From positions 186,001 to 250,000 of the forward strand of contig NZ_DS264345.1 in NCBI RefSeq assembly GCF_000153925.1: a DNA stretch of 64,000 nt, read 5' to 3'. The position numbers were made by a program, and so were the translations under genes. Source of the stretch: [Ruminococcus] torques ATCC 27756. GTDB lineage: Bacteria > Bacillota > Clostridia > Lachnospirales > Lachnospiraceae. This document shows, one piece after another, positions 23,972 to 38,453 of the stretch (its first letter is position 1; each line of letters starts with the position of its first letter). The notes beneath the pieces are model-generated. The model was not told where the DNA came from. It ran no database searches and saw only the letters and a list, made by a program, of their open reading frames with translations.

Positions 23972-25438
23972 ATGAATGTTTTACCGACACAAGAAGAAGT
24001 CAGAAGAATCGCTTCAACCGGAAAATATAAAGTGATACCGGTCAGCTGCGAAATACTTTCTGATTTCACAACTCCTATCGAAACGTTAAGGAGATTGAAA
24101 AATGTATCTATGCGCTGTTATATGCTGGAATCTGCATATGCAAATGAAACAAGGGGACGTTACACGTTTCTCGGTTTTGATCCCATTATGGAGATACGTT
24201 GTGCGGACGGAGAGATGACCGCCGGAATACTGAAGTTACAAACAGAGCATCCGTCAGCGTATTTACGCCAGATTCTCTCTGAATACAAAAGTCCTTGCTT
24301 TTCTTATCTTCCGCCGTTTACCGGAGGTCTTGCGGGATATTTTTCCTACGATTATTTTGGATATAGCGAAGCGTCGGCAAAAGGGCAAGTGGAAGATACA
24401 GAAAAATTTCCGGATGTAGATTTGATGCTGTTTGACAAAGTAATAGCGTTCGATCATTTCAGACAGAAGATCATTCTTATTGTCAATATGAAACTGCATG
24501 ATGTTGAAAGTGAATACAATAAAGCGGTCATGGAACTAAAACAGCTTGCTCATCTGTTAAAAAACGGGGAAAAGAAGAAAGAAACCGGCGGAAAGCGTCA
24601 GGAAAAAGTTACGGCGGCGTTTGGAAAAGAACAGTTTTGCGATATGGTTCAAAGCGCAAAAAAACATATTTATGAAGGAGATATTTTTCAGATCGTATTA
24701 TCGAATATGTTATCAGCGCCTTATGAGGGAAGCCTCATCAATGCTTATCGGGTTCTTAGGACAACGAATCCTTCTCCGTATATGTTTTATTTTTCAGGAA
24801 CAGATCTTGAGGTGGCAGGCGCTTCACCGGAAACATTGGTTAAATTGGAGAACGGAACGCTTCATACGTTTCCAATGGCAGGAACGAGACCAAGAGGAAG
24901 AGATGAGACGGAAGATAAAGCGCTGGAAAAAGAACTGCTGACAGATGAAAAAGAGTTGGCAGAGCACAACATGCTAGTAGATCTGGGGAGAAACGATCTT
25001 GGGAAAATCAGCCGGTTCGGCACTGTGAAAGTAGAAAAATTACATTCTGTGGAGCGGTTTTCCCATGTCATGCATATAGGCTCTTCGGTGAGCGGGAAAA
25101 TAAAAGAGGAGTACGATGCTTTGGATGCCATAGAAGCGGTACTGCCGGCAGGAACACTTTCAGGAGCGCCGAAGATCCGGGCTTGTCAGCTGATCGGCGA
25201 ACTGGAGAACAACAAACGGGGCATTTATGGCGGCGCCGTCGGTTATATTGATTTTGCGGGAAATATGGATACCTGTATTGCAATCCGCATGGCATATAAG
25301 AAAAACGGAAAGGTTTTTGTAAGAAGCGGAGCCGGGATCGTAGCAGATTCCGTACCGGAACGAGAATATGAAGAGTGTTTAAATAAAGCAAAAGCTACAT
25401 TGAAAGCGCTGGAACTTGCAGAGGAGGTGGAAGAATGA
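23972..25438 (+). CDS. trpE: Anthranilate synthase component I
   Basis: Chorismate-using large subunit that makes anthranilate with TrpG. The N-terminal Trp-binding element is LESAYANETRGRYTFLGFDP. Catalytic-domain motifs include IFQIVLSNML, RTTNPSPYMFYF, GASPETLVKL, GTRPRGRDETED, ERFSHVMHIGSSVSG and LPAGTLSGAPKIRA. At 488 aa it has the normal length. GATCGGAGG precedes the ATG. It is the first gene of a seven-gene operon under a Trp T-box, so both attenuation and feedback inhibition probably control it. It overlaps trpG by 4 nt. Confidence 0.97.
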   Translation: MNVLPTQEEVRRIASTGKYKVIPVSCEILSDFTTPIETLRRLKNVSMRCYMLESAYANETRGRYTFLGFDPIMEIRCADGEMTAGILKLQTEHPSAYLRQILSEYKSPCFSYLPPFTGGLAGYFSYDYFGYSEASAKGQVEDTEKFPDVDLMLFDKVIAFDHFRQKIILIVNMKLHDVESEYNKAVMELKQLAHLLKNGEKKKETGGKRQEKVTAAFGKEQFCDMVQSAKKHIYEGDIFQIVLSNMLSAPYEGSLINAYRVLRTTNPSPYMFYFSGTDLEVAGASPETLVKLENGTLHTFPMAGTRPRGRDETEDKALEKELLTDEKELAEHNMLVDLGRNDLGKISRFGTVKVEKLHSVERFSHVMHIGSSVSGKIKEEYDALDAIEAVLPAGTLSGAPKIRACQLIGELENNKRGIYGGAVGYIDFAGNMDTCIAIRMAYKKNGKVFVRSGAGIVADSVPEREYEECLNKAKATLKALELAEEVEE

Positions 25439-26043
25439 TTTTACTCATTGATAATTATGACAGCTTTTCCTATAACCTTTATCAGATGATCGGCGAGATA
25501 GAACCGGATGTGAAGGTTGTCCGTAATGATGAAATATCTGTGGATGAAATCCGACGTCTGAAGCCGGAGAGGATCATTCTTTCACCCGGACCCGGCAGAC
25601 CGGAAGATGCAGGGATACTCATAGAAGTTGTAAAAGAACTTGGGAAAGAAATTCCAATCCTCGGTGTCTGCCTGGGACATCAGGCAGTCTGCGCGGCCTT
25701 TGGAGCGAAAATTACTTATGCAAAAAAGCAAATGCACGGAAAGCAGTCTCAGATAAAAGTCGATACCGAAACGTTGTTGTTTTCAGGCTGCTCACAGAGC
25801 ATTTTGGCTGCAAGATATCATTCTCTTGCGGCAGACGCCGACACGATTCCGGACAGTCTCTATGTTACCGCCTCCACAAAAGACGGAGAAATCATGGCGA
25901 TACAGCATAAGGAATATCCGATTTACAGTGTGCAGTTCCATCCGGAATCCATTATGACACCGGAGGGAAGACAAATACTTAGAAATTTTATACAAGGAGG
26001 AATAAGATATGATCAAAGAAGCGATCGTAAAAATTGTAAATAA
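25435..26043 (+). CDS. trpG: Anthranilate synthase component II (glutamine amidotransferase)
   Basis: Class I glutaminase that supplies ammonia to TrpE. The triad is visible: Cys in GVCLGHQAV and His/Glu in [25 protein letters not shown] is the oxyanion-side motif. 202 aa. It overlaps trpE by ATGA and trpD by 35 nt. It is not fused to trpD here. Confidence 0.96.
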
Positions 26044-27040
26044 GGAAGATCTCACATATGACGAGGCATATACAGTTATGAATGAAATTATGAGCGGACA
26101 GACATCCGAGACGCAGAATGCGGCTTTCCTTGCTGCACTGTCAACCAAAAGCGCCAGAGCAGAGACGACAGATGAAATTGCCGGATGTGCGGCTGCCATG
26201 AGAGCACATGCGACTCGTGTGGAGACCGGAATGGAATTGTTTGAAATCGTAGGAACAGGCGGGGATCATGCACAGAGTTTTAATATTTCGACTACAGCGG
26301 CATTGGTGGCAGCGGCGGCAGGAATGAAGGTTGCCAAGCACGGAAATCGGGCGGCATCCTCCCAATGCGGAACGGCAGACTGTCTGGAAGCTCTCGGAGT
26401 TAATATTCACCAGAATCCGAAAAAGTGTCTGGAACTGTTAAATGAGGCAGGAATGTGCTTTTTCTTTGCACAGGAGTATCATACTTCCATGAAATATGTG
26501 GGGGCAATACGAAAAGAATTAGGTTTTCGTACCGTTTTCAATATTTTAGGCCCGTTGACAAACCCGGGAACACCTACGATGCAGCTGCTGGGAGTATATG
26601 ACGAGTATCTCGTGGAACCTTTGGCGCAGGTATTGCTCGATCTCGGCATCCGACGGGGGATGGTAGTATACGGACAGGATAAGCTGGATGAAATTTCTAT
26701 GAGTGCAGCGACGACCGTATGTGAGATTCGGGACGGATGGTTTCGGACTTTTGTTCTCACACCGGAAGAATTCGGGTTTGAACGCTGCAGTAAAGAAGAT
26801 TTAAAAGGCGGCACACCGAAAGAAAATGCAGAGATCACGCTTGCAATCTTAAAAGGGGAGAAAGGTCCTAAGAGAAATGCCGTATTGCTCAATGCCGGAG
26901 CGGCGCTTTATATCGGCGAAAAAGCGGACAGTATAAAGGCGGGAATTGCACTGGCAGAAGAACTTATTGATTCAGGAAAAGCATTGGATACGCTGCAAAA
27001 GCTGATCGAAGGAAGCAATCGTGGGGAGGGGTGTGTATGA
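26009..27040 (+). CDS. trpD: Anthranilate phosphoribosyltransferase
   Basis: Transfers the phosphoribosyl group of PRPP to anthranilate. The glycine-rich PRPP loop [38 protein letters not shown] and the metal motif QDKLDEIS are present. 343 aa, normal. AAGGAGG precedes ATG 26009, which lies inside the end of trpG. It overlaps trpC by 4 nt. Confidence 0.96.
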
Positions 27041-27819
27041 CGATTTTAGAACAGCTTGCCGGCTATGCCAGAGAACGAACCGAAAAAGCAAAACAGAAAC
27101 GCCCGCTTTCGACGTTGAGGCAACAGGCCTTTTCAATGCCGAAAGGAAGTTTTGCATTTGAAAATGCGATAAAAAAGCCGGAGCTTTCTTTTATCTGTGA
27201 ATGTAAAAAGGCGTCTCCATCCAGAGGGATCATCGTTAGTGATTTTCCATATATACAGATTGCAAAAGAGTATGAGAACGCCGGAGCAGACTGTATTTCC
27301 GTATTGACAGAACCAGGATGGTTTTTAGGGAAGGATGCATATCTTAGAGAAATCGCCGAAGTAGTATCTATTCCTTGTCTGCGAAAAGATTTTACCGTAG
27401 ATGAATATATGCTCTATGAAGCAAAAGTGTTGGGGGCATCAGCGGTACTTCTGATCTGTTCTATATTAAGTGAGCGGCAGATTCAGGAATATATCGGTAT
27501 CTGTGATGAGATGGGGATTTCGGCTTTGGTAGAGGCACATGATGAAAAAGAAGTGACAATGGCGGTTCGTGCCGGGGCGCGTCTTATAGGAATCAACAAT
27601 CGGAATTTAAAAGATTTTACAGTAGATACAGACAATAGCCGCAGGTTTCGTGAAATGATTCCGCCGGAGATACTGTTTGTTTCGGAAAGTGGAATTTGCA
27701 GCGCCGAAGATGTGAAAAGATTGCGTGAGATCGGCACAGATGCGGTGCTGATCGGAGAAGCGCTTATGAGAACAGAAAACAAGGCGGAAAAGCTGGCTTG
27801 GCTAAGAGGTGCTATATGA
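27037..27819 (+). CDS. trpC: Indole-3-glycerol phosphate synthase
   Basis: TIM-barrel enzyme closing the indole ring. Motifs: [15 protein letters not shown] (catalytic Lys), [40 protein letters not shown] and SESGI. I use ATG 27037, which overlaps the trpD stop and follows GGGGAGGGG, rather than the GTG two codons earlier; 260 aa. It overlaps trpF by ATGA. Confidence 0.96.
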
Positions 27820-28424
27820 CAAAAATAAAATTTTGCGGTTTGTCCCGTCGGTGTGATATTGAAGCGGTAAACGAACTGAAACCGGAATATATCGGATTCG
27901 TATTTGTAAAGACAAGTAAAAGATATGTTTCCTTTGAAAAAGCGGAGGAATTAAAAAGCCTGCTGGATCCAAAGATCAAGGCGGTCGGAGTTTTTGTAAA
28001 TGAAGATTTAAAACGAATCGAAGAAATTTGCGATAAAAAGGTGATCGACATCGTTCAGCTTCATGGGCTAGAAGAAGAGAAGGAACTGAACTATCTGAGA
28101 AGCCGTATTGTTCAGCCGGTCATCAAAGCTTTTTGTATAAAAAAGGAAGAAGATGTCAGACAAGCGGAAAGAAGTCCGGCGGATTTTATTTTATTGGATT
28201 CCGGTGCCGGAACCGGAAGAACTTTTGAATGGGAGTGGATAAAACATATGGAAAGACCGTATTTTCTTGCAGGAGGAATCCATATAGATAATGTAGAAAA
28301 AGCGCTGGAGCAGTTAAAACCTTATGCGATCGATGTAAGCTCCGGAATCGAAACAGAGGGACGAAAAGATAAAAGAAAAATGGCAGCGATTATGACAGCA
28401 GTCAGAAAGGAACGAAAATTATGA
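27816..28424 (+). CDS. trpF: Phosphoribosylanthranilate isomerase
   Basis: Amadori isomerase of tryptophan synthesis. Motifs: [19 protein letters not shown] (catalytic Cys near the start), [27 protein letters not shown] and [21 protein letters not shown] 27816 overlaps the trpC stop; the upstream in-frame TTG is unlikely. 202 aa. Confidence 0.96.
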
Positions 28425-29611
28425 CGAATCAAAAAGGACGTTTTGGTACTCATGGCGGGCAATATATCCCGGAAACATTGATGAATGCAGTGATCGAATT
28501 GGAAGCAGCATATGAGTATTACAAAAATGATCCGGAATTTAACCGGGAACTCACAGAACTTTTCAACGAATATGCAGGCAGACCTTCCAGACTGTATTAT
28601 GCAGAGAAGATGACGAAAGCTCTTGGGGGAGCAAAAATATATCTGAAACGAGAGGATCTCAACCATACGGGCGCTCATAAGATCAATAATGTGCTTGGAC
28701 AGGCATTGCTTGCAAAAAAAATGGGAAAGACAAGATTGATCGCGGAAACCGGAGCCGGACAGCATGGAGTTGCAACTGCAACGGCTGCCGCGCTTATGGG
28801 GATGGAATGTGTCGTGTTTATGGGAGAAGAAGATACGATCCGGCAGGCTTTGAACGTATATCGGATGCGGCTGCTTGGAGCGGAAGTGATCCCTGTAACG
28901 ACAGGGACGGCAACTTTAAAAGATGCCGTTTCGGAAGCGATGCGTGAATGGACCTCCCGGATCGCCGATACGCACTACTGTCTCGGATCGGTTATGGGAC
29001 CCCATCCGTTTCCTACGATTGTCCGTGATTTTCAGGCAGTTATTTCAAAAGAGATCAAAGAGCAGATCCTTCAAAAAGAAGGGCGGCTTCCGGATGCGGT
29101 GATTGCATGTGTCGGAGGCGGTTCAAATGCGATCGGCAGCTTTTATCATTTTATTGAGGACAAAAAAGTCCGCCTGATCGGCTGTGAAGCGGCAGGCAGG
29201 GGAATTGATACCGATGAAACCGCGGCTACGATCACGACAGGGAGACTTGGGATTTTTCATGGTATGAAATCTTATTTTTGCCAGGATGAATATGGGCAGA
29301 TCGCTCCGGTATATTCTATTTCCGCCGGACTGGATTATCCGGGAGTAGGCCCGGAACATGCCTATCTGCATGATATGGGAAGAGCGGAATATGTGCCGGT
29401 GACGGATGAAGAAGCCGTTTGGGCGTTTGAATATCTGGCAAAGACAGAAGGGATCATTCCGGCGATCGAATCGGCGCATGCAGTTGCTCATGCAATGAAA
29501 GTCGCGCCGTTGATGAGTCCGGAAAAGATAATCGTAGTTACGATTTCCGGCAGAGGAGATAAAGACTGTGCGGCGATCGCCCGATACAGAGGGGAGGATA
29601 TTTATGAGTAA
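28421..29611 (+). CDS. trpB: Tryptophan synthase beta chain
   Basis: PLP enzyme that joins indole and serine. The PLP lysine lies in [11 protein letters not shown]. Other motifs are [16 protein letters not shown], the phosphate-binding loop [10 protein letters not shown] and [11 protein letters not shown] near the C-terminus. 396 aa, the TrpB1 type normally paired with TrpA. It overlaps trpF by 4 nt and trpA by 8 nt. Confidence 0.97.
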
Positions 29612-30380
29612 TATCAAGAATGCGTTTAAGAACAAAAAAGCATTTATTGCATTTTTCACCTGTGGAGATCCGGATCTGGAAACAACGAAAAAAGCGATCC
29701 GATCAGCAGTAAAAAACGGTGCGGATCTGATAGAGCTTGGGATTCCGTTCTCTGATCCGACCGCGGAAGGCCCGGTTATTCAGGCGGCAAATTTAAGAGC
29801 TTTGAAAGGTGGGATCACTACCGATAAAATTTTTGCGTTCGTAAGAGAACTGCGCAAAGACATAGATGTACCGTTTGTTTTTATGACGTATACGAATGTG
29901 GTATTTTCTTATGGTGTAGAAAAATTTGTTTCAGAGTGTCAAAAGAGCCGGATTGACGGACTGATCCTGCCGGATCTTCCATTTGAAGAAAAGGAAGAAT
30001 TTCACCCGATCTGTGCCGGATATGGGGTGGATCTGATCTCTATGGTTGCTCCGACTTCTGAAAAGCGGATCGCAAAGATAGCAGGAGAGGCGGAAGGATT
30101 TTTGTATGTTGTCTCGAGCCTCGGCGTGACGGGGATGAGAAGTGAGATTACGACAGACCTGACTTCCATTGTGGCGACCATTCGTGAAAACACCCGGATT
30201 CCGTGTGCGGTCGGCTTTGGAATCTCCACGCCTCAACAGGCAGCCGCGATGGCAGAATATGCGGATGGAGTGATCGTAGGATCTGCGATCGTAAATATAA
30301 TGGAAAAGTATGGGAAGGATGCGCCGCAATATGTCGGCGATTATGTGAAAGAGATGAAAAAAGCGCTGTCTGTATATTGA
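29604..30380 (+). CDS. trpA: Tryptophan synthase alpha chain
   Basis: Cleaves indole-3-glycerol phosphate and channels indole to TrpB. The active-site loop reads [18 protein letters not shown]: the catalytic Glu (ELG) is present, but the Asp that in E. coli TrpA (DPLADGP) helps bind the indole ring is Glu here. Other motifs: [33 protein letters not shown] and [14 protein letters not shown] 29604 follows GGGGAGGATATTT; 258 aa. It is the last gene of the operon; no strong terminator follows. Confidence 0.95.
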
Positions 30381-30446: not shown

Positions 30447-30478
30447 TTAAAGTAGGATTAAGGTGATACGTTTATTTT
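30447..30478 (+). promoter_or_regulatory. Response-regulator box 1 and promoter, before the two-component genes
   Basis: TTAAAGT (30447-30453) and TTAAGGT (30458-30464) are direct repeats with an 11-bp period, the geometry used by OmpR/PhoB-family regulators. A -10-like TATTTT begins 15 bp after the start of the second repeat (30473). The same module recurs at 32572 and 34338. Confidence 0.75.
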
Positions 30479-30551
30479 TAAATAGAAATATAGTTCGCTG
30501 TGAGTAAAGGAAAAAGATAAGTGAAGCGGGCGGAAACAGGAGATATATATT

Positions 30552-31226
30552 ATGCGGTTATTATTGGCAGAAGATGAAAGAGCGCTGTCAAAAGCGCTGA
30601 CAGCGATTTTGGAAAGAAATAATTACTCAGTGGATGCAGTTTATGACGGTCAGAGCGCATTGGACTATCTGGAAGCGGATAATTATGATGGGGTAGTCTT
30701 AGACATTATGATGCCTAAAGTGGATGGACTGACAGTGTTAAGGAAAGTTCGGGAAAGGGGGAATCTGATTCCGATTCTGTTGTTGACAGCCAAATCAGAA
30801 GTGGATGATAAAGTAGAGGGATTGGATGCCGGAGCAAATGATTATCTGGCAAAACCTTTTCATTCAAAAGAACTGCTGGCAAGAATCCGGGCAATCACAA
30901 GAGCGCAGACGGCACAGGCAAATTCCAAATTGAAGATGGGAAATGTCACGCTGGATCGGGCGGCATTTGAACTTTCTACAAGTAAGGGAAGTTTCCGCCT
31001 TGCCAATAAAGAATTTCAGATGTTGGAGCTTTTAATGTGCAATCCGCATCAATTAATTTCTTCTGAACGGTTTTTGGAAAAAATATGGGGATATGACAGT
31101 GAAGCAGAGATAAATGTAGTTTGGGTATATATTTCTTATTTGAGGAAGAAGTTGTCTGCTCTCCACGCAGATATTCAGATCAAAGCGACGAGAAATGCAG
31201 GATATTCTCTGGAGGAGCGGTCATGA
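30552..31226 (+). CDS. OmpR/PhoB-family response regulator
   Basis: 224 aa. The receiver domain (1-115) has acidic residues in LLAEDE, phospho-acceptor D51 in VVLDIMMP, the Thr in LLLTAK and K101 in LAKPF. The winged-helix domain (130-220) has RLANKEFQMLELLMCNPHQL and VWVYISYLRKKL. AGGAG precedes the ATG. It overlaps the kinase gene by ATGA. A direct-repeat box overlaps its own promoter, and two further copies lie before downstream genes, so I infer autoregulation and control of the adjacent surface locus. Confidence 0.93.
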   Translation: MRLLLAEDERALSKALTAILERNNYSVDAVYDGQSALDYLEADNYDGVVLDIMMPKVDGLTVLRKVRERGNLIPILLLTAKSEVDDKVEGLDAGANDYLAKPFHSKELLARIRAITRAQTAQANSKLKMGNVTLDRAAFELSTSKGSFRLANKEFQMLELLMCNPHQLISSERFLEKIWGYDSEAEINVVWVYISYLRKKLSALHADIQIKATRNAGYSLEERS

Positions 31227-32449
31227 TAAAAAAACTTCGTATTAAACTCATCGTAGCGTCCATGATATCTTTGTTTCTTGTACTTTTTATCATAGGAGGG
31301 ATTGCAGGTGTTTTAAACTACAGGAAGATCGCAGAAGATGCTGATCGAATTCTTGAAGTTTTGGAAAAAAATGCAGGACATTTTCCGAAAATGATTCCGG
31401 GAAACGAAAAAGGGGACAGACATGGGATCTCACCGGAGATCCCTTATGAATCCAGATATTTTTCTGTTCTATTGGATGAAAAAGGAGAGGTTATTTTAAC
31501 AGATACGTCAAAGATTGTATCCATAGACACAGAAAATGCAATAGAATACGCATCAGAAGTTTGGGCAAGAGGAAAAGAAAAAGGATTTATGGATCATTAT
31601 CGCTATTGGAAGACGTCTTATGGCGGGGAGATACGTGTTATTTTCTTAGATTGCAGGAGACAGCTGGATAATTTCCTGAACTTTTTGTTTACTACAATGA
31701 TCGTATCTTTCATAGGGCTATTATCGGTTTTGTTTTTGATGATTTATTTTTCCGGGCGTATTGTCAAACCGTTTTCTGATAATTATGAAAAGCAGAAGCG
31801 GTTTATTACGGATGCGGGGCATGAATTAAGGACACCCTTGACGATTATTGAAGCAGACACGGAGGTTTTGGAAATGGACTTCGGTGAGAATGAATGGCTG
31901 CAGGATATTCGGGAACAGACAAAAAGACTTGCGGATCTTACAGGTTCTTTAGTTATGCTTTCCCGTATGGAAGAAGGGCAGAATGGAAATTTGAAAGTAG
32001 AGTTTCCTTTATCTGATATGGTGGAAGAGGTATGTCATACTTTTCAGGCGCCGGCGAAGATACAGGGAATCTGTATGAAAACTGCGATTACACCTATGAT
32101 TTCTATAAAAGGCGATGAAAAAGCAATCCGAAGTCTGATAACGATTTTGCTTGATAATGCCGTCAAATATACGAATGAAAGGGGGAGGATTGACGTTACT
32201 CTCGGGAAAAAGAAAAACCGTATTTATCTGTCTGTATTTAATACGACAGAATATATTTCAAAAGAACAGACTTCTCGTTTATTTGATCGTTTTTATCGGA
32301 CAGATATTTCCAGAAATTCCCAGACAGGAGGATACGGACTTGGACTTTCTATAGCAGCGGCGACAGCAGATTCTCACAAGGGAAAGATCATGGCAGAAAC
32401 AGAAGATGAAAAATCGCTGCGTATTACAGTGACTTTTCCGGGGCAATGA
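31223..32449 (+). CDS. Sensor histidine kinase
   Basis: 408-aa membrane kinase. A first membrane helix at 10-32 and a second at 153-177 enclose an extracytoplasmic sensor domain of about 120 residues with no recognised fold. The phospho-His H200 lies in FITDAGHELRTPLT. The ATPase motifs are LLDNAVKYTNERG (N box), LFDRFYRTDISRN (F box) and GGYGLGLSIAAA (G box). It starts at ATG 31223, overlapping the regulator stop. The input signal is unknown; its regulon suggests cell-surface or phosphate/sulfate-ester status. Confidence 0.92.
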   Translation: MIKKLRIKLIVASMISLFLVLFIIGGIAGVLNYRKIAEDADRILEVLEKNAGHFPKMIPGNEKGDRHGISPEIPYESRYFSVLLDEKGEVILTDTSKIVSIDTENAIEYASEVWARGKEKGFMDHYRYWKTSYGGEIRVIFLDCRRQLDNFLNFLFTTMIVSFIGLLSVLFLMIYFSGRIVKPFSDNYEKQKRFITDAGHELRTPLTIIEADTEVLEMDFGENEWLQDIREQTKRLADLTGSLVMLSRMEEGQNGNLKVEFPLSDMVEEVCHTFQAPAKIQGICMKTAITPMISIKGDEKAIRSLITILLDNAVKYTNERGRIDVTLGKKKNRIYLSVFNTTEYISKEQTSRLFDRFYRTDISRNSQTGGYGLGLSIAAATADSHKGKIMAETEDEKSLRITVTFPGQ

Positions 32450-32509
32450 TGAATAAACAGTACATGAGAAGCGTCAAAGAGATCTCTGTACTGATAATAT
32501 CGAATATGC

Positions 32510-32557
32510 AAAAGGCAGTAAATCTCAGGTTAATAACCTAGGGTTTACTGCCTTTTT
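32510..32557. terminator. Terminator between the kinase and the sulfotransferase genes
   Basis: AAAGGCAGTAAA (32511-32522) and TTTACTGCCTTT (32544-32555) are a perfect 12-bp stem, with an inner AGGTT/AACCT pair and a T-tail. It separates two units that carry the same regulator box. Confidence 0.88.
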
Positions 32558-32571
32558 AAGATGATTTTGTC

Positions 32572-32603
32572 TTAAAGTACAATTAAGGTACAGCGTGTAC
32601 GAT
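32572..32603 (+). promoter_or_regulatory. Response-regulator box 2 and promoter
   Basis: TTAAAGT (32572-32578) and TTAAGGT (32583-32589), 11-bp period. TACGAT at 32598 stands 15 bp after the start of the second repeat, as in boxes 1 and 3. Confidence 0.75.
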
Positions 32604-32701
32604 ATTCCTGTCAATAAAAACGGATAATTTATTTCATCAAGGAGTTTGACGTGGGAAGTTGAAGGTTTTGATGGGATAGAACAGATGGAGGGAACATTTA
32701 G

Positions 32702-34321
32702 ATGGAGATGAAGAAACAAAAAAAGATAATAGGTGGGATGATTTTAGTTTTGGCAGTGACAGCCTGCGCCTCTTTTTTTAAATCGGCGGCAGAAGAAATT
32801 GCACAGGAAGAAACGTCAGAAATATATCAAAATGAAATAAAGACCATTTATACCGAAGCGTATCAAGATGAAGTGGAAACACAGATTGAAGAAGAAAAAA
32901 GCAGCGGAGCATACACAGAGGATAATATGCTGATAAAAGAAAATCCATATGGAACAAATACCTTGTCTTTATACGTTTATTTTACTACGCAGGAGCCGGT
33001 ATCTGTTTCTTACAATGTTTCAGTTCCGGATTTGTCTATCGGTGACTTTTCACAAACGCCGGAAGGGGAAGGAAGATTTGATACGGAACATGAGTTTCAG
33101 GTTATGGGGTTGATACCGGAAGAATGTAATACTATTACATTTACTTTGACAAAAGAAGATGGAAGCGTGGAGATATATTCTTATGTACATGAAATGGGAG
33201 AATTGTCCGGAAAAGAGGAGATTCAGCTGAAACAAACAGAAGCAGCCGAAGGGAGTGAAACTGTTTTAGACGGGTTATACGTCGTTTTAGGAAATGACAG
33301 TGATGAAGAAGATTTCATGTATTATTACGATAATTCCGGTGTGCTCAGAGGAGAAATTCCGTTGATCGGTTACAGGAGCCACAGGCTTTTATTCCGGGAT
33401 GATTGTATGTATTACAGTATATCAGAAAGCAAAATTGCGGCGGTGAATCATCTTGGAAAAGCAGAGAAGATTTATGATACGGGTACATACAGTCTTCATC
33501 ATGATTATGTGTTTGATGATGATGGAAATTTGCTTGTTTTGGCAACAGACACTGAAAGCGACAGTGTGGAAGATCAAATTATTCAGATTAATACGCAGAC
33601 AGGTGAAGTTAGCTGTGTGCTCGATTTGGGAGAGTTATTTTCTGATTATAAAGAAGAATGTACGGAAAATGAAGATGGAGAATTGGATTGGATACATATA
33701 AACACGATACAGTGGATAGGGGACGATGCCGTTTTACTAAGCTCCAGAGAGACTTCGACTATTTTGATGATCGAAGATATTTATGATACTCCTCAGATAA
33801 CATATATGATTGGGGAGGAGAGTTTCTGGGAAGGAACAGGATATGAGGAATTGTTGCTTGAAAAAGATGAGAGTGCGGGAACATTTTCCAATACGGGAGG
33901 GCAGCATTCTGTCACATATGTACAAGATGATTCTTTAAATGCAGGAGAATATTATCTCTATCTGTTTAATAATAATTTCGGAGTAAGTAAGTCGAAACCT
34001 GCTTATGATTGGGAACAGATAGAAGGAATCGAAACATCGATGAAAGAAGGAGAGGAATCCTATTATTATAAATATAAAGTAAATGAAAATAATGGAACCT
34101 ATTCCCTGATACAATCTTTTAAAGTTCCATATTCTGCTTATGTCAGCAGTGCACAGGAGTATAAGGGAAATATTATTATAGATTCCGGTATGCAGGGAAT
34201 TTTCGGAGAATATGACGCATCGGGGAATATCATTCAAGAATTTGAGATGGAACTTGCCGATGAATATATTTACCGTGTATATAAGTATGATTTTGCGGAC
34301 TTCTATTTTGAAAAGCAGTAG
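32702..34321 (+). CDS. Arylsulfotransferase (ASST)-like lipoprotein
   Basis: 539 aa. The signal peptide ends in a lipobox (LAVTAC, Cys22), so it should be anchored outside the membrane. The region 80-180 resembles the ASST N-terminal beta domain (NPYGTNTLSLYVYF ... VSYNVSVPDL). The rest has beta-propeller motifs of bacterial arylsulfate sulfotransferases: SLHHDYVFDDDGNLLVLA, DWIHINTIQWIGDD, VLLSSRETSTILMIED and GGQHSVTYV. These enzymes transfer sulfate between phenols through a His intermediate. Activity is not certain, as key residues were compared from memory. A regulator box lies upstream, and a second box follows before the VTC gene. Confidence 0.75.
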   Translation: MEMKKQKKIIGGMILVLAVTACASFFKSAAEEIAQEETSEIYQNEIKTIYTEAYQDEVETQIEEEKSSGAYTEDNMLIKENPYGTNTLSLYVYFTTQEPVSVSYNVSVPDLSIGDFSQTPEGEGRFDTEHEFQVMGLIPEECNTITFTLTKEDGSVEIYSYVHEMGELSGKEEIQLKQTEAAEGSETVLDGLYVVLGNDSDEEDFMYYYDNSGVLRGEIPLIGYRSHRLLFRDDCMYYSISESKIAAVNHLGKAEKIYDTGTYSLHHDYVFDDDGNLLVLATDTESDSVEDQIIQINTQTGEVSCVLDLGELFSDYKEECTENEDGELDWIHINTIQWIGDDAVLLSSRETSTILMIEDIYDTPQITYMIGEESFWEGTGYEELLLEKDESAGTFSNTGGQHSVTYVQDDSLNAGEYYLYLFNNNFGVSKSKPAYDWEQIEGIETSMKEGEESYYYKYKVNENNGTYSLIQSFKVPYSAYVSSAQEYKGNIIIDSGMQGIFGEYDASGNIIQEFEMELADEYIYRVYKYDFADFYFEKQ

Positions 34322-34337
34322 AAATATATGGCGGGAT

Positions 34338-34369
34338 TTTAAGTAAAATTAAGGTGAGCAGTATATGAT
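34338..34369 (+). promoter_or_regulatory. Response-regulator box 3 and promoter
   Basis: TTTAAGT (34338-34344) and TTAAGGT (34349-34355), 11-bp period. TATGAT at 34364-34369 again begins 15 bp after the start of the second repeat. Confidence 0.75.
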
Positions 34370-34404: not shown

Positions 34405-35124
34405 ATGGCCTATCAAATGACTTTTAAGCGTTATGAATTAAAATATCTGCTTAATAAGAAAGAAAAAGAAGAGATTCTTCTTGCAATGAAACCGCATATG
34501 AAATTGGATGATTATGGAAGAACGGTGATAAGAAATATTTATTTTGACACAGAGAATTTCCGGCTTATCCGGCGGTCGCTGGAAAAGCCGGTATATAAAG
34601 AAAAACTTCGCATCCGAAGTTATAAACCGGTACAGATTACGGATCCGGTATTTGTGGAGATTAAGAAAAAGTATAAATCGGTTGTGTATAAGCGCAGACT
34701 TCTGCTTCCGGAAAAGACAGTGATGGAAAGTTTTCGGACAGGAGAGCCGCTCCCGGTATGTTCGCAGATAGGAGATGAAATACAGTATTTCCGCGAGTAT
34801 TATAAAAACCTTCAGCCATCCGTGTTTTTGTCTTATGAAAGGGAAGCGTTTTATTCCTTAGACGGAAGTGATTTTCGGGTAACGTTTGATGAAAATATTC
34901 TATACCGCAGAAACGACATTTCTTTAGGAAGTGAAATTTATGGACATCCCTTACTGGGAAAACAACAGACATTGATGGAAATTAAAACATCCGGTGGAAT
35001 TCCGCTTTGGATGAGTGAAACGCTTACAAAACATCATTTGTATAAAACATCATTTTCAAAATATGGTTCTGCTTATCAACGTATGATGGAAGCGGCTATG
35101 CAGGGAGAATACTGTTATGCTTAA
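34405..35124 (+). CDS. VTC-domain (polyphosphate polymerase-like) protein
   Basis: 239 aa, a stand-alone VTC domain of the triphosphate-tunnel fold. Family residues include FKRYELKYLLNKKEK, IRNIYFDTENF, KEKLRIRSYKP, VFVEIKKKYKSVVYKRR and TLMEIKTSGGIPLWMSETL: alternating Arg/Lys and Glu residues of the tunnel. In yeast this domain makes polyphosphate; the bacterial single-domain proteins are mostly untested. It overlaps the DUF4956 gene by 8 nt. VTC-DUF4956 pairs are a known genomic association, often with CotH-like kinases, which are absent here. Confidence 0.88.
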   Translation: MAYQMTFKRYELKYLLNKKEKEEILLAMKPHMKLDDYGRTVIRNIYFDTENFRLIRRSLEKPVYKEKLRIRSYKPVQITDPVFVEIKKKYKSVVYKRRLLLPEKTVMESFRTGEPLPVCSQIGDEIQYFREYYKNLQPSVFLSYEREAFYSLDGSDFRVTFDENILYRRNDISLGSEIYGHPLLGKQQTLMEIKTSGGIPLWMSETLTKHHLYKTSFSKYGSAYQRMMEAAMQGEYCYA

Positions 35125-35812
35125 TACTTTATTTCAAGGGATTTTTGATACAGATATGACCAGTGTGATTTCCGTTTCGGACTTTTTATTGTGTGTGGGA
35201 TGCGCGCTTGCAGTTGGATTGATCCTGGCGGGAACTTACATGTATGGAACAAAATACACGAAGAGTTTCGTGGCAACGCTGGCGTTGCTTCCGGCAGTGG
35301 TCTGTGTAGTGATCATGATGGTAAATGGAAATGTAGGAACCGGCGTAGCAGTTGCGGGAGCGTTTAGTCTCGTACGATTCCGCTCCGTTCCGGGATCGGC
35401 AAAAGAAATCGGGGCTATTTTTCTTGCTATGTGTTCCGGTCTGGTAGCGGGAATGGGATATTTGGCTTATGCGTTATTATCAGCAGTGATTCTCGGCGCC
35501 ATTATGCTGTTGTATAATCGGATGGATTTTGGAACGAGAAAGCATGGATTACGTTATAAAACATTGCACATTACAATACCGGAAGATTTGGATTACAGCG
35601 GAGTGTTTGACAAGATATTAAAGCAGTACACTGAAGATTATGAGGTAGTACAGATTAAAACAACAAACATGGGAAGTTTATTCAAATTGACATACAACCT
35701 TACGTTGAAAAAACCGGAAACGGAAAAAGAATTGATCGATAAACTTCGATGTAGGAATGGAAATCTGGAAATTACAATGTGCAGACAGGAGACGGTAATC
35801 GGAGAATTATAG
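35117..35812 (+). CDS. DUF4956 membrane protein
   Basis: 231 aa. Four membrane segments lie in residues 15-140 (LLCVGCALAVGLILAG, FVATLALLPAVVCVVIMMVN, and two more around AIFLAMCSGLVAGMGYLAYA). The family signature GAFSLVRFRSVPGSAKEIGA connects them. A cytoplasmic alpha/beta domain of about 80 residues follows. DUF4956 proteins nearly always accompany VTC-domain proteins, suggesting a membrane partner or channel for the product. Function unproven. Confidence 0.88.
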   Translation: MLNTLFQGIFDTDMTSVISVSDFLLCVGCALAVGLILAGTYMYGTKYTKSFVATLALLPAVVCVVIMMVNGNVGTGVAVAGAFSLVRFRSVPGSAKEIGAIFLAMCSGLVAGMGYLAYALLSAVILGAIMLLYNRMDFGTRKHGLRYKTLHITIPEDLDYSGVFDKILKQYTEDYEVVQIKTTNMGSLFKLTYNLTLKKPETEKELIDKLRCRNGNLEITMCRQETVIGEL

Positions 35813-35825
35813 GAGGCGATGAGAA

Positions 35826-37613
35826 ATGCGGAAAAGAGAAGTTGTATTATTTTTTGTAATGGGATCGTTTTTGCTATCCGGCTGTCATACAACAAATCAG
35901 GATATACAGCAAAATACAGACAGTACAGCGTCTGAGAGTACCTCTGCGACGGAAATAGATACTTCTGCTATGTTTTCCGATAGAGACAAAGAGGTCGGAT
36001 ATGAAGAAGAGGAGAGTGTCGCTGTTTTGTTGGCGGACAAGGGATCTTCCTGTGAATCTGATTCAGTGTCGATTGATGAAAACGTAGTGACTATTACAGA
36101 GGAAGGGACATACATACTTTCAGGTTCTCTCTCAGATGGAATGGTGATTGTAGATGCGGAGGATACAGATAAAATTCAGCTTGTTTTGGATGATGTATCT
36201 ATTTCTAATTCTCAGTCGGCTGCTTTGTATATACGGTCTGCAGATAAAGTATTTGTCACTACTGCAGCGGGAACGGAAAATGAGCTGATTAATTTAGGAA
36301 CGTATATTGCTATAGATGAGAATAATATTGATGCAGCGGTATTTTCAAAATCAGATCTGACTCTCAATGGGGAAGGAATACTTACCGTTACCGCTCAGGA
36401 AGGACATGGAATCGTATCAAAAGATGATCTTGTCTTTACAAGCGGTGACTATACGATTACAAGTGCAAAACATGGGATATCGGGAAAGGACAGCGTCCGG
36501 ATTGCTAATGGTTCTTATAAGATTATATCCGGAAAAGATGGGATACATGGAGAAAATACCGAGGACAGTAGTTTAGGTTTTGTCTATTTGGCAGGAGGTA
36601 CTTTTGATATTACCTCACAGCAGGATGGAGTCAGCGCCGGCGCATGGCTTCAGGCAGAGGAGGGAACTTACACTATTGTGGCAGGAGAGGGAAGCGCCGG
36701 GGTACAGAATCAGGAATTAGAAACGAAAATGCTGCCGGAACAGTTGCCGCAAGATACAACAGAGGAAAACACAACCAGTATCAAGGGAATGAAAGCGTCT
36801 GCACAGATTGTATTAAAAGGCGGAACCTATACAGTTGATACAGAGGATGATGCATTTCATTCCAACGGGAATTTTGTTGTCAGTGGAGGTACTTACAGTG
36901 TGTCATCGGGAGACGATGGGATTCATGCAGATGGGAACGTTACGATTTCCGGAGGGAGTATAGATATATTAAAAAGCTATGAAGGAATCGAAGGATTGAG
37001 TATTGATATTACAGGGGGCGAGCTTTCTGTACTGGCCTCTGATGACGGAATGAATGCAGCAGGAGGAAATGACGGCAGCGGATTTGACGGACCCGGAGGC
37101 GGGGGAGATCAGTTTGCGGTTACGGAAGGCGCCTATATTCACATTTCCGGAGGTAAGCTCCATGTCAATGCGTCGGGAGATGGCATTGATTCCAATGGGG
37201 ATCTTACGGTTTCCGGTGGAGAAACTTATGTTTCCGGTCCTTCTAATGATGGAAACGGAACATTGGATTACAGTGGCAGTGCAGTGATTACGGGAGGAGT
37301 CTTTGCAGCGTCAGGATCATCGGGGATGGCGCAAAGCTTTGATGATTCTTCCACACAAGGGTGCATGATGGTCAATGTAGAGGCGCAGGAAGCCGATACG
37401 GATATTGTACTTTTGGATGACAGTGGAAATGAAATTTTGAGCTGGAGCGCTGAAAAAACGTATTCATCTGTCATTATAAGCTGTGAGGAAATCAAAGAAG
37501 GAGAAAATTATACCGTAAAATGTGGAGAGACAGAACAGAGTGTTACGATGGACAGTTTGGTTTATGGAAGTAATTCTCCGTCAGGAGGAAATCCCGGAGG
37601 CGGCAGCTTATGA
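35826..37613 (+). CDS. Carbohydrate-binding-domain (DUF4353-type) surface lipoprotein
   Basis: 595 aa. A lipobox (LLSGC, Cys20) follows a short signal peptide; residues 25-75 are a Ser/Thr-rich linker. From about 85 on, right-handed beta-helix-like repeats recur with the theme GGTYxVxSGDDGIHADGNV-T: for example HGISGKDSVRIANG, DGIHGENTED, DDAFHSNGNFVVSGG, DGIDSNGDLTVSGG. The tail is Gly-rich (NPGGGSL). The DUF4353 family is annotated as carbohydrate-binding. AGGAGG precedes the ATG. It lies 13 nt after the DUF4956 gene, so it belongs to the VTC operon and is probably exported to the cell surface. Confidence 0.87.
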   Translation: MRKREVVLFFVMGSFLLSGCHTTNQDIQQNTDSTASESTSATEIDTSAMFSDRDKEVGYEEEESVAVLLADKGSSCESDSVSIDENVVTITEEGTYILSGSLSDGMVIVDAEDTDKIQLVLDDVSISNSQSAALYIRSADKVFVTTAAGTENELINLGTYIAIDENNIDAAVFSKSDLTLNGEGILTVTAQEGHGIVSKDDLVFTSGDYTITSAKHGISGKDSVRIANGSYKIISGKDGIHGENTEDSSLGFVYLAGGTFDITSQQDGVSAGAWLQAEEGTYTIVAGEGSAGVQNQELETKMLPEQLPQDTTEENTTSIKGMKASAQIVLKGGTYTVDTEDDAFHSNGNFVVSGGTYSVSSGDDGIHADGNVTISGGSIDILKSYEGIEGLSIDITGGELSVLASDDGMNAAGGNDGSGFDGPGGGGDQFAVTEGAYIHISGGKLHVNASGDGIDSNGDLTVSGGETYVSGPSNDGNGTLDYSGSAVITGGVFAASGSSGMAQSFDDSSTQGCMMVNVEAQEADTDIVLLDDSGNEILSWSAEKTYSSVIISCEEIKEGENYTVKCGETEQSVTMDSLVYGSNSPSGGNPGGGSL

Positions 37614-37617
37614 AGTC

Positions 37618-37803
37618 ATGTTCAAAAATCGCATTGATTCTGGCATACAATCCGGAGTATTGTCTGGTAGATTTGGTACAGACATTAAAGAAAAAGGGAT
37701 TTTGGAGATCTATGGAACAACGAATCGTTTGACAAATATATATTTTATTATCGGAGGAATGTTTCTTATTCTGGGAGTTTTTCTATATTGTTTGAAAAAG
37801 TAG
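37618..37803 (+). CDS. 61-aa single-pass membrane protein
   Basis: ATG 37618 lies 4 nt after the preceding stop, with GGAGGCGG at 37596-37603 somewhat far upstream. The protein has a polar N-terminal half (KNRIDSGIQSGVLSGRFGTD) and one C-terminal membrane helix (IYFIIGGMFLILGVFLYCL) ending in KK. No family is recognised. It sits between the carbohydrate-binding lipoprotein and the alarmone synthetase. Confidence 0.55.
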   Translation: MFKNRIDSGIQSGVLSGRFGTDIKEKGILEIYGTTNRLTNIYFIIGGMFLILGVFLYCLKK

Positions 37804-37829
37804 TCGGAACTATGCCGGGAGGTGGAAGC

Positions 37830-38453
37830 GTGACACAGGAAGAATACTATGGTGATGTATTTGCTTTACTGAAACAAGGAGAAGTATACTTAAAGAAAGT
37901 AATGGAAATGTATCCAAATGATAACACACAAGATGAGCTGCAGTCGATTTTATACACAAAGACAAGAATAAAAACACCGGAAAGCATGATGGAAAAATTA
38001 AAAAGGCGCGGATTGGAGACAGATTGTCGTACTGCATTGGCAAATACTCATGATGCCATAGGAATCAGAGTGATCTGTTCTTTTGTAGAAGAAGTATATC
38101 GTATCGAAAGATGGCTGCAAAAAAGAGAGGATATTGAAATCCTGGAAAAAAAAGATTATATCGCTTATCCGAAGGCAAATGGTTACAGGAGTCTTCATCT
38201 GATCATACAATTTACAAAATTTGATTTACAGGGAGTTGAAGCGGAAATACAGATTCGTACGATTGCCATTGATTTTTGGGCAACTCTGGAACATCAGATA
38301 AAGTACAAAAGAAATGTTCCACATGAAAAGACGATACGGAGGGAACTGAAAAGGTGCGCAGATGAAATTGCTTCTGTGGATTTGTCTATGCAGACTATCC
38401 GGGATATTTTACAAAGTGATACATGGAAGCACGTAGATGAAAGAAGTCGGTGA
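37830..38453 (+). CDS. Small alarmone synthetase (RelA/SpoT-type GTP pyrophosphokinase)
   Basis: 207 aa with only the (p)ppGpp synthetase domain, as in YjbM/RelQ and YwaC/RelP. Motifs: ALANTHDAIGIRVICSFVEE, the metal/ATP region, KANGYRSLHLIIQF (YRSLH is the key loop) and AEIQIRTIAIDFWATLEHQI. No hydrolase domain, TGS or ACT. I choose GTG 37830, which follows GGGAGGTGG at the right distance, over upstream in-frame starts. It closes the VTC operon, suggesting a link between alarmones and the polyphosphate-like system. Confidence 0.88.
   Translation: MTQEEYYGDVFALLKQGEVYLKKVMEMYPNDNTQDELQSILYTKTRIKTPESMMEKLKRRGLETDCRTALANTHDAIGIRVICSFVEEVYRIERWLQKREDIEILEKKDYIAYPKANGYRSLHLIIQFTKFDLQGVEAEIQIRTIAIDFWATLEHQIKYKRNVPHEKTIRRELKRCADEIASVDLSMQTIRDILQSDTWKHVDERSR

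Follow-up and report, generated by a model that had tools for sequence, protein, structure and literature searches.

Which protein recognizes three near-identical direct repeats within 3.9 kb of the [Ruminococcus] torques ATCC 27756 genome, and which genes are thereby brought under its control? The repeats (hereafter boxes) lie in a stretch of 64,000 nt (GCF_000153925.1, contig NZ_DS264345.1, positions 186,001-250,000 of the forward strand), which will be referred to as the window and whose own numbering is used. They precede the gene of an OmpR/PhoB-type response regulator, that of an arylsulfotransferase (ASST)-like lipoprotein and that of a VTC-domain protein. On the basis of the comparisons given below we consider it very probable that the regulator is the protein that binds at each of the three boxes, and that it activates the operon of which it is part, the gene of the ASST-like lipoprotein and the VTC-DUF4956-Cthe_2159 operon. 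Directly observed are the boxes themselves, the way they are spaced and placed, the fact that they are conserved upstream of regulator and VTC genes, and how they match the class of the regulator. For a two-component system found in many clostridial records, a probable binding site, partner and set of targets can in this way be named from sequence alone. The genes concerned are little explained (VTC, DUF4956 and Cthe_2159, joined in relatives by a phosphodiester glycosidase and a glycosyltransferase of the GtrA type).

An original prediction, made from the window, had placed the three repeats with a period of 11 bp at the starts listed in Table 1, and a scan with TTWAAGT-N4-TTAAGGT recovered all of them there without a single mismatch. 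The -10-like hexamers start exactly 15 bp from the start of the second repeat at all three boxes, as had been claimed, and coordinates and Pfam assignments agree with the claimed order of box and gene, the distance from box start to ATG being 105 bp (regulator), 130 bp (ASST) and 67 bp (VTC). No -35 hexamer is present at a 17-bp spacer, where the three promoters read AAGTAG, AAGTAC and AAGTAA, and none of the 23 matches in a scan for sigma-70-like promoters coincides with them. Regulators of the OmpR/PhoB family bind direct repeats of this sort, and a repeat box that lies over the -35 region in the absence of a -35 hexamer is the layout of activator-dependent promoters in this family. At the Pho-box promoters of PhoB, 11-bp direct repeats likewise replace the -35 element, but the half-site sequence differs from that in the window, and the window regulator scores 175.8 bits against a PhoB equivalog cut-off of 296.2.

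Among the 2,735,484 bases of the genome there are three exact matches to the 18-mer, all of them inside this 3.9-kb segment, and none to a reversed-pattern control. With up to three mismatches allowed, the window yields 11 matches; the eight that are not boxes all differ at three positions. In 149 other genomes of the family (~444 Mb by rounded sizes) a hand tally gave 15 exact matches against 32 for the reversed control; at that rate the Poisson chance of three copies in 3.9 kb is about 4e-13, independence being assumed. Only six of these 15 matches, in 4 of the 12 genomes concerned, lie at this gene cluster (two in G082, two in G034, one each in G099 and G119), and nine lie elsewhere. Many of these nine are likely chance matches; two have a phased TANNNT (one in G025 with an ABC transporter, one in G120).

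Relatives were obtained by scanning public genome contigs with the VTC protein, and the best 80 of 188 loci were used. Allowing two mismatches within 200 bp upstream, we found the box before the VTC gene in 22 of 75 cases (shuffle mean 0.3, reversed pattern 2) and before the response-regulator gene in 15 of 28 (shuffle mean 0.15, reversed pattern 1), and before none of the histidine kinase (0/32), DUF4956 (0/77) or Cthe_2159 (0/28) genes. The distance to the -10 region is conserved as well, with TANNNT at a gap of exactly 8 in 34 of the 37 sites (next-best offset 8/37); the sites that lack it precede the regulator gene of L079 and the VTC genes of L077 and L085. A 32-position matrix was built from the 34 phased relative sites (21 effective), the window sites being excluded, and gave these unseen sites the scores listed in Table 1; scores of at least 16 were reached at 60 of 1,842,920 positions (window and 80 loci, both strands), known sites included. 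Divergently oriented regulator/VTC pairs carry one box per side in L102, L110 and L113.

The same architecture emerged from a scan in which no motif was specified. Any 7-mer direct repeat (6/7 equal) followed by TANNNT was accepted, at periods of 8-15 and gaps of 3-13, in 220 regions of 113 loci, which partly overlap as the regions after the kinase and before the VTC gene may be the same DNA. At period 11, 67 regions responded at gap 8 and 73 at gap 9, the 7-mer sliding along the repeat, and at most 15 did so for any other period. The repeat could thus be refined to TTWARGT-N4-TTWARGT with a period of 11. Boxes such as TTTAAGTTCATTTAAGGT fit a period of 10 (TTTAAG-N4-TTTAAG) too, but that period is disfavoured, given its peak of 15 of the 220 regions against 73. 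These scans also bear on the idea that the boxes arose as copies of a short mobile or repetitive element, or by chance. Their letters are AT-rich and loose matches are common, but the flanks of the three boxes, compared by eye, share little past box and -10, the genome holds no further exact copy, and the box is kept before the same genes in other genomes. Conservation, matrix and motif-free scans contradict such an origin, which we regard as extremely improbable; chance AT-rich repeats are ruled out by genome exactness, conservation, the motif-free scan and the flank comparison.

Some relatives carry phased boxes before other genes: an HtrA-like protease gene in L071 (Trypsin_2, E 6e-34; the name HtrA was given by eye), glycosyltransferase-2/GtrA genes in L085 (weak, 14.7) and G082 (L038), and a beta-helix-like lipoprotein gene (below the Pfam cut-off) in G119 (L029). 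In 11 of the 80 loci, counted by eye, Cthe_2159 is followed by genes related to two of L071, for a glycosyltransferase and a phosphodiester glycosidase (NAGPA); the Pfam assignment was made for L071 alone. Tandem double boxes, some 22-23 bp apart, were seen ahead of an HtrA-like gene or VTC, at L071 4909-4963, at L077 5911-5965 and in the VTC promoter of L181 (~5283); they look as if two dimers could be bound in line.

To specify the match between regulator and box, the regulators were sorted by recognition helix into four classes, with one regulator unassigned: class A (VVWxxISYLRKK, 34 loci), class C (VVWVHISNLRKK, 6 loci), class D (VIDVYIRYLRKK, 20 loci) and class E (NNVEVYMSFxRKK, 6 loci). 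A scan for repeats with both halves starting with TT, in which each locus counted with its single best box and at least 5 of 7 was required, found a box in 53 of the 66 loci. The boxes of class D were of type TTxxT in 16 of 16 cases and those of class E of type TTC in 4 of 4. The VTC operon occurs with regulators of class A, class C (L126) and class E (L087, L130), each with the matching box type. In L087 and L130 the order VTC-DUF4956-Cthe_2159 is kept, with an NNVE-type regulator and a TTCA-type box, and L215 is a third class-E locus of this order, in which no box was seen; the three suggest a possible exchange of the regulator at a conserved operon.

Clostridial OmpR-type regulators may share a common frame (7-4-7 repeat, 8 bp, -10, no -35) in which the recognition helix sets the half-site dialect: VVWxYISYL with TTWARGT, VVWVHISNL with TTTAG, VIDVYIRYL with TTAATST and NNVEVYMSF with TTCA. 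The VTC surface operon would then have switched regulator class in evolution, the box switching along, and to this reading as a whole we give an even chance. If it is true, regulons could become readable from sequence alone. The change of helix and half-site within a constant promoter frame makes testable how OmpR-family regulators discriminate between boxes. The helix-box match, on which the regulon reading also draws, has points against it. Class A is not uniform, with 23 TTWAR boxes, 1 TTxxT, 4 others and 6 of 34 loci without a box at this threshold, and class C is not clean either (3 TTTxG, 2 TTWAR). The dialect labels were fixed after the helix sorting had been viewed. Finally, helix class tracks half-site such that none of 20,000 label shuffles equalled it, but these shuffles treat related loci as independent, and there are in effect four concordant groups rather than 53 events.

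The presence of the box across loci follows this class of regulator. Scoring a regulator as present from 280 bits, we found in the 48 loci of at least 11.9 kb both box and regulator in 20, the regulator only in 1, the box only in 5 and neither in 22 (p=6e-8), and in all 75 loci with 150 bp upstream 28, 1, 12 and 34, respectively (p=4e-10). In these counts a box was accepted before either the regulator or the VTC gene where the regulator was present and otherwise before the VTC gene only, an asymmetry that weakens these counts as evidence; by VTC box alone the values were p=3e-5 (loci of at least 11.9 kb) and 2e-6 (all 75). A genome-level search, which covered 8 of the 12 box-only loci and 12 of the 34 loci with neither, recovered a VW-type recognition helix elsewhere in the genome for 5 of the 8 box-only and 1 of the 12 box-less loci (p=0.018), and the strict class-A pattern for 3 of 8 and 1 of 12 (p=0.26). 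One further genome with a box has an 81% regulator match across the first 100 residues, a part that does not cover the helix. The genome-level search lends weak support to the link between box and regulator. Where the regulator at a VTC locus is of quite another kind (L133, L136, L137, L140 and L146), no such repeat was found before the VTC gene.

Considering that OmpR-type proteins are numerous, a paralog might bind the boxes, with the neighbouring regulator a mere bystander or target. The host genome has one other match at E 1e-50, which is 43% identical (G000:C2:3198-3866), but its helix, VIDVYIRYLRKKI, is of class D, and its kinase-like open reading frame is followed by a box of its own, TTAATGT-TATT-TTAATCT-N8-TATAGT, and then by a lipoprotein-like reading frame of 210 residues (L218, G000:C2:3198-5335). 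The host genome contains a single exact copy of the class-D pattern (7 matches at up to one mismatch, against 9 for the reversed control). Of the 20 class-D loci from other genomes of the genus, 16 have a box of this type after the kinase gene. The distinct helix and unique box at the second locus imply two systems in one cell, each with its own box. Given also the co-occurrence described above, more weakly expressed in the genome-level search, binding by a paralog seems quite unlikely. As to the distribution of the window regulator itself, a search of 57 other genomes of the genus at E 1e-50 found no regulator above 51% identity, and far closer ones are found in L071-L073 and L076 (410-431 of 477 bits), a pattern that might be explained by transfer, loss or sampling.

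The original prediction of a two-component regulon under an OmpR/PhoB-type regulator is thus supported by conservation, the fixed -10 distance, co-occurrence and the match of helix and half-site. Several observations weigh against it. The -10 hexamer of box 1 is weak, and box 2 is supported by this genome alone. Loose counts show no enrichment: with two mismatches allowed, 25 sites of the genome match, as compared with 91 for the reversed control, and at up to one mismatch the broadened TTWARGT-N4-TTWARGT has 5 in total against 56. The two extra sites of the broadened pattern lie within a same-strand reading frame and opposite a reading frame, respectively, so that no wider regulon was found within the host genome. 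The signal rests on exactness, clustering and promoter position rather than on loose enrichment. Loss of the repeats despite conserved gene order, which the original prediction had named as evidence to the contrary, occurs mostly where the regulator is of another class (e.g. L087 and L130) or none was seen nearby. There are two exceptions: L085 has an adjacent class-A regulator and no site scoring at least 14 before the regulator or VTC gene, and the genome of L144 encodes a class-A regulator and has a VTC gene without a box.

A close parallel is the CiaRH regulon of streptococci. The CiaR box is given as (N)TTAAG-N5-TTTAAG, with the -10 element ten nt past the second TTTAAG; most targets are activated, htrA is one of them, and there is feedback on ciaRH (PMC3091779, PMC8317062). 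The window boxes show the same ten nt from second half, which reads ATTAAG, to -10, and Asp51 is shared. The half-site TTWARGT differs, however: the first halves (TTTAAA, CTTAAA and TTTTAA) lack the final G, so that the CiaR consensus is not matched in the window, whereas the relatives L105 and L107 do fit it. Compared with the published helix, VVEVYVSKVRKKL, the recognition helix VVWVYISYLRKKL is equal at 9 of 13 positions. An HtrA-like gene lies behind a box in the relative L071 only and behind none of the window boxes, the main targets here being VTC, DUF4956 and Cthe_2159. With the spacing to the -10 shared and the half-site close, the window system appears to work like CiaR, yet we do not file it as CiaR, given that the first halves of the window boxes end without the G.

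The comparison is also relevant to the sign of regulation. A regulator bound over the -35 region could block the polymerase, and CiaR represses manLMN (PMC8317062, available text); the window regulator might likewise repress, or activate some promoters and repress others. Yet the window promoters have no -35 hexamer, and the available text of PMC8317062 and PMC3091779 describes 21 genes as activated by CiaR, with the same box/-10 geometry, which makes repression, in whole or in part, unlikely. In the preferred reading, activation at all three boxes, a membrane kinase would sense an envelope signal and phosphorylate Asp51, upon which the regulator would form a head-to-tail dimer on TTWARGT-N4-TTWARGT. 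The bound protein would substitute for the missing -35 contact and hold RNA polymerase at the -10 hexamer that lies 8 bp past the box. Positive autoregulation would come from box 1, and boxes 2 and 3 would bring surface genes into the regulon. To judge from the genes involved, the regulon may concern a polymer at the cell surface or an envelope response.

The 7-4-7 architecture, and with it the proposed mode of action, has a structural precedent in mycobacterial PhoP, which binds 7-bp direct repeats with a strict 4-bp spacer and half-site TCACAGC, and in whose crystal structure with DNA helix positions 1, 2, 4, 6 and 9 contact bases (PMC4832192, available part); half-site and targets differ. 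With the register set through N-V-x-E-x-Y-x-x-Y, several of these contact positions appear to vary between the helix classes, as do positions 3, 7 and 8, which are outside the PhoP contact list. Clostridial VTC-domain clusters with CotH nearby have been described, e.g. for C. perfringens, and the available text of that report mentions neither a box nor a two-component system that controls the VTC genes (PMC2879425). Our literature search returned nothing that joins 'VTC domain' with 'DUF4956' or 'CiaR' with 'TTAAGG'. Protein family and kind of system are known; regulon and helix-to-box pairing are new as far as the literature was searched.

Table 1. Boxes, -10-like hexamers and genes of the three-box locus (window coordinates; scores refer to the matrix built from relatives only)
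Feature	Position	Strand	Remarks
Box 1, TTAAAGT-AGGA-TTAAGGT	30447..30464	+	before response-regulator gene; score 16.8
-10-like hexamer TATTTT	30473..30478	+	8 bp past box 1; weak
Response regulator, OmpR/PhoB type	30552..31226	+	PF00072 (receiver) and PF00486 (winged-helix Trans_reg_C), both above cut-off; phospho-acceptor Asp51; recognition helix NVVWVYISYLRKK, first residue 188
Sensor histidine kinase	31223..32449	+	408 residues; His200 in GHELRTP; Pfam HisKA and HATPase_c (searched minus first Met)
Hairpin after kinase gene	32510..32556	+	inverted repeat 23 nt, 87%; short T run at end
Box 2, TTAAAGT-ACAA-TTAAGGT	32572..32589	+	before ASST-like lipoprotein gene; score 25.2
-10-like hexamer TACGAT	32598..32603	+	8 bp past box 2
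Arylsulfotransferase-family lipoprotein	32702..34321	+	PF05935 E 5e-79, 266.4 bits (cut-off 24.2); PF17425
Box 3, TTTAAGT-AAAA-TTAAGGT	34338..34355	+	before VTC gene; score 23.5
-10-like hexamer TATGAT	34364..34369	+	8 bp past box 3
VTC-domain protein, polyphosphate-polymerase-like	34405..35124	+	PF09359 E 1e-43, 149.8 bits (cut-off 23)
DUF4956 protein	35117..35812	+	PF16316
Cthe_2159-type carbohydrate-binding protein	35826..37613	+	PF14262 E 2e-99; order kept in many relatives
RelA/SpoT-type synthetase	37788..38453	+	PF04607; listed start TTG

With regard to the genes themselves (Table 1), the regulator has the domains and the phospho-acceptor Asp of the OmpR/PhoB type. Among the best 25 of 97 matches to NCBIfam two-component equivalogs (RppA, PhoB, MtrA, VanR and others) none reaches its cut-off, the best being RppA with 221.4 bits against 250. 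The hairpin after the kinase gene, which a terminator scan did not list, is possibly a terminator, in which case the ASST gene would need its own promoter. The ASST lipoprotein has a lipobox-like VTAC (by eye) and gave no match in a PDB sequence search at E 0.001. In its two nearest relatives among 100 family genomes (63% and 55%; G032 and G085), the stretches taken contain neither a box nor a window-type kinase or regulator. Old membership of ASST in the regulon is therefore unsupported, and the lipoprotein may be a local recruit. The VTC protein weakly matches yeast Vtc4 chains in PDB (best E 0.0015), and the Cthe_2159-type gene likely belongs to the VTC operon. The RelA/SpoT-type synthetase, a possible member of the operon, adjoins the same two-component genes in L080, L082 and L183, and a link to (p)ppGpp is possible. 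Further downstream, Pfam recognizes a dockerin/Big_2 protein in the same direction and then MgtE on the opposite strand. Just upstream of box 1, at 23972-30380, lies a complete-looking tryptophan biosynthesis operon, as judged from translations with names assigned by eye.

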